Below, one piece after another: positions 24,848 through 42,917 of a DNA stretch of 48,742 nucleotides (position 1 is its first letter; the number at the start of each line of letters is the position of its first letter). Source of the stretch: Frankiaceae bacterium (GTDB lineage: Bacteria; Actinomycetota; Actinomycetes; JADGOV01); NCBI GenBank assembly GCA_017882785.1, contig JADGOV010000009.1, forward strand, positions 1 to 48,742. Reading direction: 5' to 3'. A program made the translations under genes and the position numbers. A model generated the notes under the pieces. That model searched no databases and had not been told where the DNA came from. It saw only the letters and a program-made list of their open reading frames with translations.

Positions 24848-27226
24848 TCAACGAGCGGCGCGGTACCGGTGGCGCTGGGGCTGGGGCTGGGGTATCGCCC
24901 GCAGTGCCGCCAGCCCGCCGACGTCGAAGCGTTGCCGGACGAGGTCGATCGCCGCTGTCAACGGAACCGCCGCCGAGAAGTACCAGCCCTGCCCGGAGTC
25001 GCAGCCCAAGGAGTGCATGAATGCTGCGGCGGCCGCGTTCTCGATGCCCTCGGCGATGAGCCGGATGTCCAGCGCGTGGGCCATCGCGGCGACGCCTTCC
25101 ACCAGCGTGGCCGCCCGGATATCCTCCGGCAGGCGCTGGACAAACGACTTGTCGATCTTGAGGCTGTCCACGGTCAGGCGATGCAGGTAGGAGATAGAGG
25201 AGTAGCCGACCCCGAAGTCGTCGACCGAGAGGCATACGCCGGATTCCCGGACCGCCTCGAGGGTCGCCGCCGTTGCCCCGTCCTCACCGAGGAGGGTGCT
25301 CTCGGTGAGTTCCAGGACCAGCTGGACTGCCTCGTGGGCTTGCGCCATCTCGGCGACCAGGGGCGGGAAGGACTGTTGGGCGAGCTGGACGGCGGAGACG
25401 TTGACCGCCATCGACAGCGGTCGGTCCGCAGCGGCGACAAGCGCCCCCGCCTCGGCTACCGCCCGGCGCAGGATGCGCTCCCCGAGTTCTGAAATGAGCC
25501 CGATCTGCTCGGCCAGCGGGATGAAGACGTCAGCCGGGATGGTGCCGAGCTGGGGATGGTGCCAGCGCGCCAGGGCCTCGAAGCCGGTGACCGTCCCGGT
25601 GGCCAGTTGAACGATGGGCTGATAGTGCACCTCAATCGCGTTGCGTTTGAGAGCCAGCCGCAGTTCTTCCTCCAGTTCCATCCGCTGCTTATTGGCTGTC
25701 CGCAGCGCGGGCTCGAACGCTTCTACCCGGTCCCCGCTCAGCGTCTTGGCCCGGTACAGCGCGAGGTCGGCGTTGCGCAGCAGGTCGGCCGCGTCGGTGG
25801 CGTCGCGGCCGAATGCCACCCCGATCGAGGCGCTGATACCGACGTCGGAGCCGTCCACGACAAAGGTTGAGGCCATCGCGCCCAGGACGCGGCCGGCCAC
25901 CTCGAAGGCCTCCTCGTCGCCGCGGATCTCCTCGAGCAGGACGAAGAACTCATCGCCGCCGAGTCGAGCCAGCGTGTCGGTATCCCGGGTACAGGAGCGC
26001 AACCGCTCGGCCACCGCCATCAGCAGTTCGTCCCCGGCCGGGTGACCCAACCGGTCGTTGACCGCCTTGAAGCCGTCGAGGTCGAGGTAGAGCACACAGA
26101 TCGTGCGCCCGCCGCGGGCGGCGAGTACCAGCGCGTGGGAGAGCCGGTCCACGAGCAGCGTACGGTTCGCCAGCCCGGTCAGCGGGTCGTGCTGGGCCAG
26201 GAAGGCCATCTCGTCAACGAGCCTGCGCCGTTCCAGGGAGTCGGTGGCCACTGCCATGAGCGCGTCCAACGCCCGCTGGTCATCCGCGTCGAAGTACTGG
26301 CCGCTGGAACCTAGCCTTCGGGCGATCAGGTAACGGTCCGACCGACCGTCGACGGCGAGCTTCGCGCCGATCTCGCGGCCGAAGGGCGGCGTGTGTCGCC
26401 AGCAGGCGGTGGTGCGCCGCAGCACCCGCTCGGCGTGCCGGGCGACGGCCGCATCCAACTCGGCACTCTCCGGCAAGTGGTTGACCATCGAGGCGGCGTC
26501 GAAGAGTGCGATCAGCCGGTGCTCGTGCAATCGGGCCCGACTGACCGCGCGGGCGGCGATGACGATGCTGCCCACCGGAACGAGCAGCAGGGCCAGCGCC
26601 GCGCCTGGCAGCCGCTGGTACATCAGTGCGGCCAGGTAGCCCAACGTGTCGATGCCGACGAAGCAGGCCAGTGGGAGCCATACCCTGCGCATGGGGATGA
26701 CGTCGCGCAGGGGGCCGTGCCCCTCGGTGGCCAGGCTCAGCCCGGTGAGGACGATGTCGAGCAGGAAGTACACGGCGCAGGCGCCGCTGACCTTCAGCAA
26801 CTCGCCCCACACCGAGGACCCGATGGGCTTCGCCTCGGTCAGCAACCTGACCAGGATCGGCCCGAGCAGGTTGGTGAGACCGATGTTGAAGGCCCGAGCG
26901 CCAAAGCTCTTGCGCTGGAAGGCGTGCGCAACGGTCGTGCCTATCGCCCACAGCGCACAGGCCTGCAGACTCGAGGTGGTCAGTGTCAGGTAAACGAGGA
27001 CGCAGGACTCGAAGCCGATGACCGAGTCGCCGCCGCGCTTGGAGACGATCAGCGGAAACTGCGCCAGGACGATCACGATCAACGGCGCGAGCGCGAGCCA
27101 GGGGGAGCCGGCCGGCGGCGCCGCAACCCATCGGATGACGTTGATCGCACCGATCGTCGATCCGACGGCAACGATGGCCGCGTCCAGCACGGCGGCGCGA
27201 CTCGGCGGCACCAGCCGTGCCGTCAT
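24848..27226 (-). CDS. Membrane GGDEF-EAL cyclic-di-GMP signalling protein
   Basis: About 792 residues: six to eight membrane helices (about 10-235), a GAF-like linker (about 255-345), a GGDEF domain with intact GGDEF near residue 422 and the inhibitory-site motif RDTD five residues before it, and an EAL domain with EALARW near 550, NVSAVQL, ELTES, DDFGVGYSS, KIDKSFV and EGIEN. Both diguanylate cyclase and phosphodiesterase sites look intact, so it could make or degrade c-di-GMP. ATG 27226 is chosen, behind GGGGGCG; ATG 27307 would add 27 residues without helices. The membrane region resembles that of the GAF protein at 38855-40453. Confidence 0.93.
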   Translation of the reverse strand: MTARLVPPSRAAVLDAAIVAVGSTIGAINVIRWVAAPPAGSPWLALAPLIVIVLAQFPLIVSKRGGDSVIGFESCVLVYLTLTTSSLQACALWAIGTTVAHAFQRKSFGARAFNIGLTNLLGPILVRLLTEAKPIGSSVWGELLKVSGACAVYFLLDIVLTGLSLATEGHGPLRDVIPMRRVWLPLACFVGIDTLGYLAALMYQRLPGAALALLLVPVGSIVIAARAVSRARLHEHRLIALFDAASMVNHLPESAELDAAVARHAERVLRRTTACWRHTPPFGREIGAKLAVDGRSDRYLIARRLGSSGQYFDADDQRALDALMAVATDSLERRRLVDEMAFLAQHDPLTGLANRTLLVDRLSHALVLAARGGRTICVLYLDLDGFKAVNDRLGHPAGDELLMAVAERLRSCTRDTDTLARLGGDEFFVLLEEIRGDEEAFEVAGRVLGAMASTFVVDGSDVGISASIGVAFGRDATDAADLLRNADLALYRAKTLSGDRVEAFEPALRTANKQRMELEEELRLALKRNAIEVHYQPIVQLATGTVTGFEALARWHHPQLGTIPADVFIPLAEQIGLISELGERILRRAVAEAGALVAAADRPLSMAVNVSAVQLAQQSFPPLVAEMAQAHEAVQLVLELTESTLLGEDGATAATLEAVRESGVCLSVDDFGVGYSSISYLHRLTVDSLKIDKSFVQRLPEDIRAATLVEGVAAMAHALDIRLIAEGIENAAAAAFMHSLGCDSGQGWYFSAAVPLTAAIDLVRQRFDVGGLAALRAIPQPQPQRHRYRAAR

Positions 27227-27386
27227 ACCAGCGCCCCCGTGCTCGTCCAGCCGGCCGCCATCGCCGGCGGGGGCAGGGACGCAGACAAGCCGGACACGGT
27301 TCGGCATCGGCAGCCGCGTGCCGGTGCTGAAGCCTTCGGGAGTGTCCCGGGGCGGCGGCCGCGGTCACCGCCCGGCAGGCAGTCTG

Positions 27387-37779: not shown

Positions 37780-38847
37780 TCAGGCAGCCCGGAACGGGAG
37801 CAGCGGGATGCTCGTGCTCATCGGGAGCCGCAGTCGCAGCGTGGTGCCATCCCCCGGCCACGAGGTCACCTCGATCGACCCGCCGGCCAGGCGCGCACGC
37901 TCGTGGAGCAGACCGAGGCCGACGTGGCGCCCCTGTTCGGGCGCGACGGTGTCCGGGTCGAAGCCGGGACCACGGTCACGGACAGCCGCCACCAACTCCC
38001 GGTCGCTGAAATCCAGCGAAGCCTCGGCCTCGAACTCGTCCGCGTGCTTGACGACGTTGAGCAGCGCCTCCTGGAAGAAGCGGTACGCCGTGACCGCGGT
38101 GGCCAGCGGCAACGGCCGCGGCTGGGCCGGCCAATCCAGGTGTACGTCCAGCGCGTACCGCTGGTTCATGTCGTCGCACAGGGTGGCGACGGCGAGCGCC
38201 AGGTCGCCATCACGCAGCGCCGGGGGCCGGGTCCTGGCCATCACGCCGCGCACCTGCTCCTCGGCCTCGGAGACCAGCTCCGCCGCCCGACGCACCTCAT
38301 CCGGCTCGCGCAGGTCCATGGCCAGCATCGACCGGGCCATCATCAGCGTCTGGGCCACCGTGTCGTGCAACTCGGCCGCGAGTTGGCCCCGAGCGCCCTC
38401 CTCGGCGGCCACCAGCCCCGAGAGCAGTTCGAACATGCCGGCGCTCGCGGCCTGCGCGGTCCGCCGGTGACGTTCGGCAATCTCATCGGCCACCCGCACC
38501 CGCCGGTACATCGCGTGCAGCGTCCCACTCAACTCCCGCAGCTCACGGAAGGGCGCATCCGGCACTGGACCGCCCGGAGCCGATTCCGACAGGCGCATGA
38601 GGGCGTCGTGCTCCATGCTGCGCAACTGCCTGGCGGCGTAGCTGCCAGCAAGTCCGGCGACGACCGCGCAGCCGAGGGCGACAGCGGCGCCGCTGGCCAG
38701 CAGCACCACACTTCGCCCGTCCAGTCGGCCCAGATAGGCCAGACCGCTGCCGACCACCACCACCACCAGCAAGCCGGTCGCCAGCGCGCCCCCACCGGCC
38801 CAGACCGCGAGCGGCAGGGACCCCGTCAGGCGACCTCGGGCGGTCAT
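37780..38847 (-). CDS. NarL/LiaS-type sensor histidine kinase
   Basis: A 355-residue kinase with two N-terminal membrane helices (LLVVVVVGSGLAYLG and VLLASGAAVALGCAVVAGL), a HAMP-like linker, a HisKA_3 dimerisation domain with phospho-acceptor His161 in AAELHDTVAQTL, and an HATPase_c domain with an N-box FFQEALLNVVKHAD, G1 RDRGPGFDPD and G2 GLGLLHERARLAGG. It lacks a large extracytoplasmic sensor, so the upstream membrane-GAF protein or the subtilase may supply the input. It starts 7 nt after that protein's stop, behind GAGG. The NarL-type regulator at 42237 is the likely partner. Confidence 0.93.
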   Translation of the reverse strand: MTARGRLTGSLPLAVWAGGGALATGLLVVVVVGSGLAYLGRLDGRSVVLLASGAAVALGCAVVAGLAGSYAARQLRSMEHDALMRLSESAPGGPVPDAPFRELRELSGTLHAMYRRVRVADEIAERHRRTAQAASAGMFELLSGLVAAEEGARGQLAAELHDTVAQTLMMARSMLAMDLREPDEVRRAAELVSEAEEQVRGVMARTRPPALRDGDLALAVATLCDDMNQRYALDVHLDWPAQPRPLPLATAVTAYRFFQEALLNVVKHADEFEAEASLDFSDRELVAAVRDRGPGFDPDTVAPEQGRHVGLGLLHERARLAGGSIEVTSWPGDGTTLRLRLPMSTSIPLLPFRAA

Positions 38848-38854
38848 GGAAACC

Positions 38855-40453
38855 TCAGCCGGTGCCTGGCCAGGATGTTCTCACCGCGTCGGCGGGATCG
38901 GCGTCGATGCGGGGACCGCTGCGGGGTAGGCCGGCGGTGTCGGCCGGCGGGGTGGCCGTCAGCGGTGCCGGCAGCACCCCGCTGGTGGTCCACGCCGAGG
39001 CAGCCGACGGCGGCTCCTCGTCCGCCGGGACGTCAAGCTCCGTCGACTCCTCGCGACCAGCGGTCGCCAGCTCCGCATCGGCGGACAGTGCGACGGCGCC
39101 GAGCAGCGAGGCGACCGCCCGCTCGACCACGTGGAGTTCGCCCACGATGTCGTCGAGATCCCGCGGCGCGTCCAAGGCGGTAGCCAGCCGGACGAGGCGA
39201 CCGGCCGACTCCTGCAGCAGACCCAGTGCAGGCACGGTGTGCGCCCCAAGGTCACCCAGGGCCCTCGCCGCTTCACCCACCGCTCGGGCGTGCCCCACAG
39301 CCGCGTCTCGCTGGACAGTCAGCCACGCCGCGGCCAGCCACGACTCCCCCTGTCCAACCAGGACACGGGCCAGGCTCACTTCGCGCCGACCGAAAGGGGC
39401 CGCCCCGACGGCACGCCTGGCCACGCAGACGGCCAGCGGCTGGTCCCGGTCTCCCAGCACGGCGGAGCAGAACGGACGGCCATCCTCGATACCCGTGCGT
39501 ACGCCGGATCCCAACGCAGCCATCACCCACGGTCGGTCGAAGGCTGCCGGGTCGGCGCGCCGACCGGACACTCCCGTCTCGTCACCGGAGTAGCGGATCG
39601 GACCGTCGGCGCCGAGCAGCACCATCTCCACGTCGGCGCCGCCGAACAACCGCGCCGCTGCGGTCAGCACCACCTCGGCCGAGACGTCGACGGAGTGCGT
39701 CCCCACACTCTGCTGGCCGCGGGCGAGCTCAGCGAACAGTCGCGCCTCGGCGCTGCGCGCGGACTGCTCCTCGTAGGAGATCCACAGCAGAACGAGTGGT
39801 ATCACCAGGCCCAGCAGACCCATCGGGGCGTGCAGCGCCAACCAGGCAGCCAGCAAGCCGATGCTCGACGTGCCAGCCTCCTGCAGGGTGGCCATCGAGA
39901 AGCTGTCCCACAGCACCGAACCCAGCGGCTGGTCGGTCATGATCGACATCGGTAGGGCAACGAGGGCGGTGTTCACCAGCCAGAAGACCGCCAGTCCGGC
40001 TGTCGCGGCGGCGATGTTGCCGCCGAGTGCCTGCGCGGTCGCGCTGCCGGCCAGGGTGCTGGCGGCGAACAGGGTCACGTTGAAGACCAGTTTGAGTCCG
40101 GGCTGGCGGCGGACCCGTTGTGCAACCAGGACGCCGACCGCCACGGCGACCACCGTCCAACTGCCGGTGGCGAAGACGTACGCGGCCCCGATGACACCCT
40201 CGGTCAGGGAGAACGTCCACATCTGTCGGCGGAAGGCGACGTGCACGACGGCCAACTCGGTGCCGGCGACCCCGGCGGCGAGCAGCAGCGGAGCCCACCA
40301 CGCGGGAGCTCCCCACCCGAGCAGCACGCCACCGACGACACAGACCACCACTGTGATCGCGGTCAGCACCGCCACCTCGCGGGCCGCGCGACGGGCCCGG
40401 GACGCGCCCGTGGCTGCCGGTGAACTCCCGGCCGCGGCTGCCGGCGCGCTCAT
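38855..40453 (-). CDS. Membrane-GAF sensory protein without recognised output domain
   Basis: This 532-residue protein has about eight membrane helices (residues 30-225), then a GAF-like domain (about 250-385) and a helical segment (about 385-450) rich in Ala/Leu that resembles a degenerate dimerisation helix pair, ending in a Pro/Ser-rich tail. The membrane part resembles the N-terminus of the GGDEF-EAL protein at 24848-27226. No kinase, GGDEF or DNA-binding output is present. It overlaps the subtilase stop as ATGA and is followed after 7 nt by a histidine kinase, suggesting a sensory accessory subunit. That role is inferred. Confidence 0.8.
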   Translation of the reverse strand: MSAPAAAAGSSPAATGASRARRAAREVAVLTAITVVVCVVGGVLLGWGAPAWWAPLLLAAGVAGTELAVVHVAFRRQMWTFSLTEGVIGAAYVFATGSWTVVAVAVGVLVAQRVRRQPGLKLVFNVTLFAASTLAGSATAQALGGNIAAATAGLAVFWLVNTALVALPMSIMTDQPLGSVLWDSFSMATLQEAGTSSIGLLAAWLALHAPMGLLGLVIPLVLLWISYEEQSARSAEARLFAELARGQQSVGTHSVDVSAEVVLTAAARLFGGADVEMVLLGADGPIRYSGDETGVSGRRADPAAFDRPWVMAALGSGVRTGIEDGRPFCSAVLGDRDQPLAVCVARRAVGAAPFGRREVSLARVLVGQGESWLAAAWLTVQRDAAVGHARAVGEAARALGDLGAHTVPALGLLQESAGRLVRLATALDAPRDLDDIVGELHVVERAVASLLGAVALSADAELATAGREESTELDVPADEEPPSAASAWTTSGVLPAPLTATPPADTAGLPRSGPRIDADPADAVRTSWPGTG

Positions 40454-41961
40454 CGGCCGGTCACCCCGTCATCCCAGGGTTCGGCCGACCACGACTTGGC
40501 CGACCACGACTTGGCCGACCAGGGTTTGCTCGACCCGCTCGTCGCGGTCCAGACGTCGGTGCTCCAGGCCGCGTTCAGTGCCTGCACCCAGCCCGGAGCG
40601 TCCCATCCGTCGGCCCACCACGCCTGCCGGTCCAGCGTCCCGACGTCGACGTCGGGGACGTCGGCACTGCCGGGGACGGCGAGCATGCCCGCTCCGGCGC
40701 GGCTGTCCGCCATCGGTGCGGCTGCCCCCCGCATCGCCGCGCTCACTGCTGCCGGGCTGGCCCCCGGGTGGGCTCCCAGGTACATCGCGACCACACCGGC
40801 GGTGACGGCCGTCGCCTGGCTGGTCCCCGAGCCGCGCCACAGCCCGCTCGGCAGCTGCGCGGTCGGGTAGCTGCGAGCGATCTCCGAATCAGCCGGGAGC
40901 AGGCTCTGCAGGTGCACGCCGGCGGCGACCAGATCCGGCTTCTGGACGCCGTGCACCATGCCGGCGCCGCTGAACGGCGCGACACTCGGGGCCTCGTCAG
41001 TGGTGTCGGCCGCGCCGACGGTCAGCGCCTGCGGCTCGAAACCGGGGTCAGCGACCTCGCCGGCGGTGTTGCCGGCGGCAACCACGACGGAGACTCCGGC
41101 GTGCCGAAGGTGGCGAACCGCCATGGTCAGCGGGTCTGCGCCGTAGGCCCCACCTGGGCGATCCGCGGCCAGAGACAGCGAAACGACGTCGATGGGCCGG
41201 TGGCTGGCCACCCAATCCAGCCCGGCCAGGACTGCCGAGAGGCTGGTGACCCCACCGTCGTCGGCAACCTTCACCGACACCACGCGGGCGCCGGGTGCAA
41301 CGCCGAGCCCGCGATCGGCGCCGGTGTCCACACCGGGCACCGCGCCACCGGCGAGCAGGTCGGCCATGAAGGTTCCGTGACCGAAGCCGTCGGAGAAGAC
41401 ACCCTCGGTGTCGACCTCGTGTCCAGTGGAAAGGCCTCCAGCGGCGAGCCCGGAGGTGTCGACGCCGTCCACCAGCCGCCCGGAGGCGCGGTTGAGCGCG
41501 GGAGTGTCAGCGATCCCCGTGTCCACCACGGCCACTGTCACCTCCCGGCCAGCCTCCGGTCGCCCGGCCTGTGCGCCGAGCCGTTGCCAGGGGAAGACCC
41601 CGGTCCCGCTGCTGTCCACGGACGCTGTGCTGGTCCGAACCGGAGCGTCGGTCCGCAGGCCGGCGACGCGGGCATCCCGGCGCAGGGTGCGCAGGGTCGC
41701 CGGCGCAGCACGGACCACCTCGGCGCCGATGCCGCCGAGGTGGGCCAGAACCGCCACGCCGGGCCCGGCGACCGGGGCGTTGCCGGTCAGGGCCAACACG
41801 GCCGTCACCGGCGCGCCCCGGGCGGATGTCGGTACGTGCGGCGGGCGGGCTGTACCGGCGGCCGTGGAGCCACCGGCCAGACATCCGGTCAGGACAGCGA
41901 TCAGGACAGCGAGGACGACCGCCGGTGGGCCCGTGGTGACCTGAGGAGACCTCCGCCTCAC
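40450..41961 (-). CDS. Secreted subtilisin-like serine protease (S8), predicted lipoprotein
   Basis: About 503 residues. The N-terminal signal peptide ends in a lipobox-like LTGC. A possible I9-type propeptide (about 50-110) precedes the S8 domain with Asp147 in VAVVDTGI, His195 in GFGHGTFMA, Asn298 in VVAAGNTAG and Ser381 in GSGTSQATAV. The tail carries Trp-Ser-Ala-Lys-Ser repeats like those seen on other actinobacterial subtilases. GTG 41961 is preferred over ATG 41967, which abuts the purine-rich ribosome site. It is first in an operon with a membrane-GAF protein (ATGA overlap) and a histidine kinase. It may process an extracellular signal for them; this is inference. Confidence 0.92.
   Translation of the reverse strand: MRRRSPQVTTGPPAVVLAVLIAVLTGCLAGGSTAAGTARPPHVPTSARGAPVTAVLALTGNAPVAGPGVAVLAHLGGIGAEVVRAAPATLRTLRRDARVAGLRTDAPVRTSTASVDSSGTGVFPWQRLGAQAGRPEAGREVTVAVVDTGIADTPALNRASGRLVDGVDTSGLAAGGLSTGHEVDTEGVFSDGFGHGTFMADLLAGGAVPGVDTGADRGLGVAPGARVVSVKVADDGGVTSLSAVLAGLDWVASHRPIDVVSLSLAADRPGGAYGADPLTMAVRHLRHAGVSVVVAAGNTAGEVADPGFEPQALTVGAADTTDEAPSVAPFSGAGMVHGVQKPDLVAAGVHLQSLLPADSEIARSYPTAQLPSGLWRGSGTSQATAVTAGVVAMYLGAHPGASPAAVSAAMRGAAAPMADSRAGAGMLAVPGSADVPDVDVGTLDRQAWWADGWDAPGWVQALNAAWSTDVWTATSGSSKPWSAKSWSAKSWSAEPWDDGVTGR
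40481..40525 (-). repeat. 15-bp repeats encoding the subtilase C-terminal Trp-Ser tail
   Basis: Three units of 15 bp (40481-40495, 40496-40510, 40511-40525), based on ttggccgaccacgac, encode WSAKS-type pentapeptides on the minus strand. The unit keeps frame, so copy number can vary without disrupting the gene. Confidence 0.9.
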
Positions 41962-41997
41962 CTGCATCCCTTCCGCCGCCGGCGGGCCCGGCGTCCG

Positions 41998-42016
41998 CCT
42001 GGGTTGTCGTCCCAGG
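41998..42016. promoter_or_regulatory. Inverted repeat in the divergent subtilase/regulator promoter
   Basis: CCTGGG-TTGTCGT-CCCAGG lies about 35 nt before the subtilase start and 220 nt before the response-regulator start. It could be the regulator's binding site or a small leader hairpin. The rest of the 270-bp gap holds an AT-richer patch near 42028-42062 and nothing else recognised. Confidence 0.3.
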
Positions 42017-42236
42017 ACGGGCAGAACTGATGCGTTTGACTGATTACGTCGATCTTTTCACCCGCGCGCGCGGTCGTGGAGATCGTCACGGGGGTCGACC
42101 TGGCCGGCCCCGGCCGGCGCACGACCTTCCGGCGAACTACAGGAGCGGCCGGACTGATCCGATGCAGGGTCTGCGTCGCCGGAATCGGCGCGCCGGTCCG
42201 CGCCCGCGCGGTCCGCCCGACACCCCGGAGGACGAC

Positions 42237-42917
42237 GTGACCGTTCACCTCGAGCGTGCGGGTGCCTCCGGGGCCGGTTCTGGCTCCGGCTTCACCGCGA
42301 TGGTCGTCGACGACCATCCCCTGGTGCGCGAGTCCATGGTGGCCCGACTCACCACCATGGGCGCCCGGGAGGTGGTCGAAGCAGCCAGTATCGCCGAGGC
42401 GCGCGCCCGCGCCAGGGCGAGCGGCCCGCGGGATCTGTGCGTGCTCGACATCGGTCTGCCCGACGGCTCAGGCTTGGCGTTGTTGGGCGAGCTCCGCAGT
42501 GCCGGCTGGCCCCGGCTGGTGGTGCTCTCGGCGGCGGATGACCCGCACTCGGTCCGCTCCGCCTTCATCGCCGGCGCCCAGGGCTACCTGCTCAAGTCGG
42601 CCAGCCCCTTGGTGGTGGCGGATGGCATGCGGCGGGTGTTGGACGGCGGGGTGTACGCCGACCCGATGGTCGCGTCGTTGCTGGCGACCGGGTTGCGCGA
42701 GTCCCAGACACCGGATGGTACGAGCGAACTGTCCAACCGGGAGATCGACGTCCTGCGGTTGGTCGCCGACGGGCGATCGAACAAGGAGGTCGGTGAAATC
42801 CTCGGGCTCTCCGCGCTCACGGTGAAGAGTCATCTGGCCCGGATCTCGCGCAAGCTGGGCACCGGCGACCGGGCCGAAATGGTGGCCCTGGTCATGCGCT
42901 CCGGAGTGATCCGGTAA
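42237..42917 (+). CDS. NarL/LuxR-family response regulator
   Basis: A 226-residue protein starting at GTG 42237, 6 nt after GGAGG. The receiver domain (about 20-140) has the acidic pair in MVVDDHPLVRESM, phospho-acceptor Asp71 in CVLDIGLPDG, the Ser/Thr switch in VVLSAADD and the Lys in YLLKSAS. The C-terminal LuxR helix-turn-helix reads LSNREIDVLRLVADGRSNKEVGEILGLSALTVKSHLARI. It is divergent from the subtilase/membrane-GAF/kinase operon, so it most likely pairs with the histidine kinase there and regulates the shared promoter region. Confidence 0.94.
   Translation: MTVHLERAGASGAGSGSGFTAMVVDDHPLVRESMVARLTTMGAREVVEAASIAEARARARASGPRDLCVLDIGLPDGSGLALLGELRSAGWPRLVVLSAADDPHSVRSAFIAGAQGYLLKSASPLVVADGMRRVLDGGVYADPMVASLLATGLRESQTPDGTSELSNREIDVLRLVADGRSNKEVGEILGLSALTVKSHLARISRKLGTGDRAEMVALVMRSGVIR

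Follow-up and report, generated by a model that had tools for sequence, protein, structure and literature searches.

A subtilase encoded with a MASE9-like membrane protein and a sensorless two-component pair: a possible protease-coupled signalling unit in Actinomycetota

Gene content and conservation of the locus

We analyzed a 48,742-nucleotide stretch of DNA from a Frankiaceae bacterium (contig JADGOV010000009.1, referred to as the window herein), in which four genes encode a secreted subtilase, a membrane protein with a GAF domain (the membrane-GAF protein), a NarL/LiaS-type sensor kinase, and a NarL-type response regulator. The first three form a compact minus-strand operon in this order, and the regulator gene is divergent. 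The start of the membrane-GAF gene overlaps the subtilase stop in the letters ATGA, and the kinase gene starts 7 nucleotides past the membrane-GAF stop. The coordinates, the overlap, the gap, and the divergent regulator all agree with a preliminary description of the window, which had overlooked that the subtilase ends in a C-terminal tail of Trp pentads and that the protease-receptor pair recurs with other outputs. The features of the locus are listed below.

40450..41967, minus strand: subtilase of family S8, 505 amino acids, with signal peptide, pro-region, catalytic domain, and Trp-pentad tail
40474..40566, minus strand: C-terminal Trp-pentad tail of the subtilase, WSTDV-WTATS-GSSKP-WSAKS-WSAKS-WSAEP-W, a short and degenerate copy
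38855..40453, minus strand: membrane-GAF protein, 532 amino acids, with MASE9-like membrane domain, GAF domain, helical hairpin, and tail motif
39749..40381, minus strand: MASE9-like membrane domain of the membrane-GAF protein, common to receptors with other outputs
40079..40093, minus strand: KxxFN motif of the membrane domain, K121 to N125
39404..39691, minus strand: GAF domain of the membrane-GAF protein, from AlphaFold, Foldseek, and hhalign
38972..39388, minus strand: helical hairpin (ERAVASLLGA) and C-terminal WTT[TS]G motif, both conserved in alignments
37780..38847, minus strand: NarL/LiaS-type sensor kinase, 355 amino acids, from Pfam HATPase_c and HisKA_3 and from hydropathy
41968..42236, no strand: divergent promoter region, with GGAGCAA-N14-GGGCTACAG in orthologs and a degenerate form in the window
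42237..42917, plus strand: divergent NarL-type response regulator, 226 amino acids, from Pfam Response_reg and GerE; the open reading frame reaches 42030

The preliminary description had made its case depend on the four genes occurring together elsewhere, and they do. Within the reach of the contigs, the window and about 20 genomes of many different families share the order DUF3000, kinase, membrane-GAF protein, and subtilase, followed divergently by the regulator and RNase D. Two of these genomes are Frankiaceae and Frankiales metagenome-assembled genomes. The subtilase is part of this order at 19 loci. Since the same gene order recurs so often, the locus is more than a chance arrangement. 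Across 297 genomes of the class, a regulator ortholog was present in 23 and the kinase in 26, with both in 22, and every genome with the membrane-GAF protein also had the kinase (25/25). Taken together, the synteny and the co-occurrence indicate that the pair in the window is a real unit and vertically kept.

The kinase carries HATPase_c above the Pfam cut-off and HisKA_3 at 23.6 bits, just below the cut-off of 24.0. Hydropathy gave two membrane helices joined by an outer loop of about 7 residues, the minimal loop of LiaFSR/VraTSR kinases, so the earlier statement that the kinase has almost no extracytoplasmic part is correct. Its sole PDB match and nearest solved relative is VraS (4gt8). Against the LiaS equivalog NF052531 it scored 44 bits where the cut-off is 450, which places it outside that equivalog. 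The regulator has both Response_reg and GerE above the Pfam cut-offs, as in NarL-type two-component systems, and VraR is one of its four PDB matches; its orthologs are 71-84% identical and occur once per genome. Judging from a GGAGGA ribosome site and from agreement with the orthologs, GTG at 42237 is a more likely start than ATG at 42030. Upstream of the regulator gene, GGAGCAA-N14-GGGCTACAG is conserved at six loci (L068, L069, L072, L073, L037, and L038), and a search of 12 genomes returned six occurrences, once each in six genomes and all at this site. The element is also retained at loci that lack the subtilase (see below). An inverted-repeat operator in the divergent promoter was considered and dropped, as shared dyads were no more numerous than in shuffled sequence.

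The membrane-GAF protein, the subtilase, and their pairing across the phylum

The membrane-GAF protein has no Pfam or NCBIfam match, and therefore none to the LiaF family that belongs to LiaFSR/VraTSR systems. Its GAF domain emerged from structure prediction. An AlphaFold model built on three sequences gave the GAF domain 3ci6 as its best Foldseek match (E 6e-4, probability 1.00), with a pLDDT (predicted local distance difference test) of about 65-86 in this region, and hhalign of the window region with the GAF domains of related proteins gave E 4e-5, all consistent with a GAF fold. The membrane part of the model is of low confidence, with a helix count of six to eight. Pfam MASE9 (PF20972) reaches at most 18.0 bits in relatives against a cut-off of 24.3 and does not match the window protein itself, and no relative of this membrane domain was found in the PDB. 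Our own profile (A1) detected the MASE9-like domain in 61 of the 118 genomes of the class that were searched. The membrane-GAF protein carries no enzyme domain of its own, and relatives that share its membrane domain are fusions with kinases or with cyclic di-GMP enzymes. Because a protein without an output needs one and the sensorless kinase is encoded next to it, the kinase is the obvious partner. These fusions, together with the restriction of the membrane-GAF protein to kinase-bearing genomes, support the split sensor that had been proposed earlier.

The WTT[TS]G end of the membrane-GAF proteins (window 38972-38992) follows a variable linker and is recognisable even in the most diverged ortholog, where it reads WTSTG (L062). 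This tail is a candidate site of contact with the kinase. We also considered a degenerate dimerization and histidine phosphotransfer domain in the C-terminal hairpin, and dropped it since hhalign gave only E 0.087 over 29 columns.

The window subtilase matches Pfam Peptidase_S8 with E 2e-32. The catalytic Asp, His, and Ser, like the oxyanion Asn, show no substitution in 19 diverse relatives (D28, H76, S262, and N179 of the aligned domain), so members of the family look like working proteases rather than pseudoenzymes. A lipobox-like LTGC in the signal peptide (window 41840-41967) is peculiar to the window subtilase; a lipoprotein was rejected because relatives have no Cys at this position. At the C-terminus, Trp recurs at every fifth residue in 78 of 79 family members, and the exception is cut by a contig end. 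Of 982 units, 80% have Gly or Ala at the third position of the pentad, and the unit is often nearly constant within an array and different between proteins (WRGSS, WNGLR, WTGAS, WSASS, and WYGTS). Between neighbouring units, we counted 825 synonymous and 399 non-synonymous single-base codon changes, where a synonymous share of 0.31 is expected without selection and where the observed share is inflated by third-position GC bias. Single arrays reach 22:0 and 34:1, and the short, less regular window array stands at 2:2. Arrays of 22:0 and 34:1 are hard to explain otherwise despite the GC bias, which suggests that the identity of the pentad unit is under selection. An AlphaFold model of the subtilase that included the tail was unusable (pLDDT 35).

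When the membrane domain was used as the sole query, the search brought up receptors that carry other outputs. The 118 genomes contain 84 subtilases of the family, and 61 of these have a gene for this domain directly downstream and on the same strand. Of the remaining 23, about 14 meet a contig end, and inspection showed two others to be adjacent, one divergently. When only loci not cut by a contig end are counted, about 90% have the subtilase directly upstream of a MASE9-like receptor. The pair was likewise present at 20/20 loci inspected in other classes of the phylum, which were picked without regard to neighbours, and three of these loci have two consecutive subtilases. At L156, L163, and L167, a single receptor gene is preceded by a tandem of two Trp-tailed subtilases. 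Contigs of draft assemblies frequently end just past the subtilase (L113-L115, L117, L121, L123, L124, and others), probably at the pentad array, and the pairing is therefore under-counted in draft genomes.

The outputs of 85 paired membrane-domain proteins were GGDEF-EAL (39), GGDEF alone (2), HisKA-HATPase in a PAS-HisKA-HATPase architecture (21), SpoIIE (3), and the split type of the window (17), with no recognised output in three truncated or broken proteins. Their motifs are largely intact, with exact GGDEF in 36/41, ExL in 38/39, and HELRTP in 21/21. As the membrane domain is constant, the outputs vary, and the output enzymes appear intact, the pair looks like an input module that signals inward. 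The SpoIIE-type phosphatases of L052, L054, and L055 carry a HATPase domain and would tie the subtilase-receptor pair to partner-switching regulation. The genome of the window encodes another subtilase-receptor pair, whose output is PAS-GGDEF-EAL (G000:C85, locus L098). Within the window, a GGDEF-EAL protein of 819 amino acids at 24848-27307 (minus strand) has no MASE9-like membrane domain, and the annotated neighbours of the locus between 34.9 and 46.2 kb are, by Pfam, a sortase, DUF3000, a deacetylase-like protein, RNase D, and a thiolase.

Proposed signalling and its alternatives

We propose that the four genes work together as a single signalling unit, directed from outside to inside and built around a split sensor, in which the protease acts with the membrane domain, and we give this reading about an even chance. 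It builds on the gene order, domains, catalytic residues, co-occurrence, and recurrent pairing of subtilase and membrane domain observed above. The exported subtilase, catalytically intact by sequence, would be kept at the envelope by its Trp-pentad tail and would act on the membrane domain of the membrane-GAF protein with which it is co-translated, or through that domain, and proteolysis would create, remove, or report the stimulus that the membrane domain reads. The membrane-GAF protein would then use its GAF domain, its helical hairpin, and its C-terminal tail to control the sensorless NarL-type kinase, in much the way that LiaF controls LiaS, and the kinase would phosphorylate the divergently encoded regulator. 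What we infer in this explanation are the physical contacts and the role given to the tail, as well as the signalling direction, the signal itself, and the regulon.

Several observations weigh against this proposal. Four orthologous loci, in two species of one genus and in the genomes G189 and G021, have no subtilase and yet keep the regulator, the membrane-GAF protein, and, where the contig reaches, the kinase. The four genes hence do not hold up as an obligatory unit, and the subtilase is accessory rather than essential to the circuit, since the rest is kept without a local copy. In a tree built from the regulator and RNase D, the two species that lost the subtilase are placed with firm support (100/99) inside a group of genomes that have it, and G189 and G021 fall near the unresolved base, so at least two independent events are required. 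Many MASE9-like GGDEF-EAL receptors also have no adjoining subtilase. In G249, the regulator stands without a neighbouring kinase or membrane-GAF protein, and can therefore work with another input or none; this orphan form (L076) also lacks the subtilase, adjoins RNase D, and has DUF3000 nearby. Lastly, the KxxFN motif is general to the membrane domain and not specific to the pair with the subtilase. N125 is replaced in the membrane domains of 4/4 subtilase-less orthologs and is Asn in 71/71 others (17/17 subtilase-bearing orthologs, 48/48 paired relatives, and 6/6 others). A docking motif for the subtilase was nevertheless rejected as specific, because the Asn is also kept in 19/20 receptors without a local subtilase, which makes it a hallmark of the membrane domain. 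The loss of the Asn alongside that of the protease, in at least two lineages, counts in favour of the proposal and suggests that the input side of the circuit decays as one piece.

The loci without a subtilase would suit a simpler explanation, in which an ordinary kinase-regulator pair works with a LiaF-like accessory membrane protein and the subtilase is a co-transcribed exoenzyme for nutrition or wall turnover with no part in signalling. The resemblance of the kinase and regulator to VraS/LiaS and VraR/DevR fits this as well. However, throughout the phylum the subtilase family adjoins one and the same membrane domain, with outputs of four kinds, and a stray exoenzyme would not follow a single sensor domain in this way; absence of the subtilase, moreover, coincides with loss of the conserved Asn. 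We consider this explanation distinctly improbable, and take the phylum-wide pairing as genetic support for the link between protease and signalling suggested earlier. Alternatively, the direction may be reversed. LapD/LapG is a proven receptor-protease pair with such logic (PMC3032545, PMC4359373), and here too the receptor might hold or free the protease according to its cytoplasmic state, after which the protease would trim surface proteins while the kinase and regulator answer to the same receptor or set its level. Co-translation of receptor and protease agrees with this, and the Trp tail could be the docking part. LapD is a cyclic di-GMP receptor that does not act as an enzyme, whereas in the pairs described here the GGDEF, EAL, and kinase motifs of the outputs are catalytically intact, and the outputs differ between pairs while the membrane domain stays, as for an input module; the protease is also a serine subtilase and not LapG-like. 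Because the outputs look catalytic, an inside-out direction is possible but less likely, and on the whole we regard it as unlikely.

The Trp-pentad array could also be read as a multi-copy peptide precursor, such that the subtilase cuts its own or a neighbour's tail into identical pentapeptides and the paired membrane domain senses these as a self-encoded density or diffusion signal. Secreted subtilases process signal peptides in Bacillus, and the units are nearly identical within an array and differ between proteins, with the excess of synonymous changes (825 versus 399) pointing the same way. Yet a Trp ladder that binds a regular polymer or a membrane would yield the same conservation. The GC bias, moreover, raises the synonymous share, the array of the window is short with mixed counts (2:2), and a known processing site is lacking, which leaves the precursor reading a long shot. 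Extended to the phylum, it would yield self-stimulating receptors, where tail proteolysis frees a strain-specific Trp-pentapeptide signal that is read by the MASE9-like domain encoded right behind and relayed to the output present in that lineage, be it a kinase, a cyclic di-GMP enzyme, a SpoIIE phosphatase, or the split kinase of the window. That all of these steps hold together seems very doubtful.

Should the pairing of subtilase and membrane domain prove functional, Actinomycetota would share a common protease-coupled input module feeding two-component, cyclic di-GMP, and SpoIIE signalling. The MASE9-like domain, for which we found no known stimulus, would then gain a candidate in the activity, substrate, or tail of a dedicated subtilase. 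The natural experiments at hand, namely the circuit with and without the protease and the pair with different outputs, make the question directly testable.

Relation to known systems

In the LiaF-LiaS-LiaR system, a membrane protein controls a kinase that has no large sensor of its own (PMC3543457, PMC7191749). The window resembles LiaFSR/VraTSR in its sensorless two-helix HisKA_3 kinase with a tiny outer loop, its NarL-type regulator, and its adjoining separate membrane protein, and differs in having a MASE9-like and GAF partner instead of LiaF, an added subtilase, and a divergent regulator. GarS of Streptomyces coelicolor has two membrane helices and a 9-amino acid outer loop judged 'unlikely to be a sensor domain' (PMC11043171), and SCO5785 of the same species affects secreted proteins and antibiotic timing (PMC3276577). 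By the descriptions in the relevant passages of these papers, GarR/GarS and SCO5784/SCO5785 are NarL-type pairs like that of the window; those passages mention no adjacent receptor or protease (PMC11043171, PMC3276577).

LapD/LapG shares with the window a membrane receptor and a cognate extracytoplasmic protease. It differs in protease class, in its non-enzymatic receptor, and in its inside-out direction; the window protease is a serine subtilase and the window receptor lacks GGDEF-EAL, with intact motifs in its relatives. In NisP-NisRK lanthipeptide clusters, a subtilase adjoins a two-component system and matures the inducing peptide. The window is set apart by its membrane-GAF partner and Trp tail, and no lanthipeptide genes were found among the annotated neighbours from 34.9 to 46.2 kb, where small open reading frames were not examined. 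Mycosins of type VII secretion provide the best NCBIfam match of the window subtilase (TIGR03921, 78.3 bits), far below the equivalog cut-off of 278.75 that would make it one of them.

The preliminary description knew of no described system of this composition. This stands insofar as we found no description of the protease-receptor pairing, the Trp-pentad tail, or the interchangeable outputs in open-access full text, where an earlier description may still exist; it requires amendment in that LiaFSR/VraTSR and LapD/LapG are functional parallels. The parts belong to known families, and it is their pairing, the Trp-pentad tail, and the interchangeable outputs that make up a putative, apparently new form of protease-coupled transmembrane signalling.

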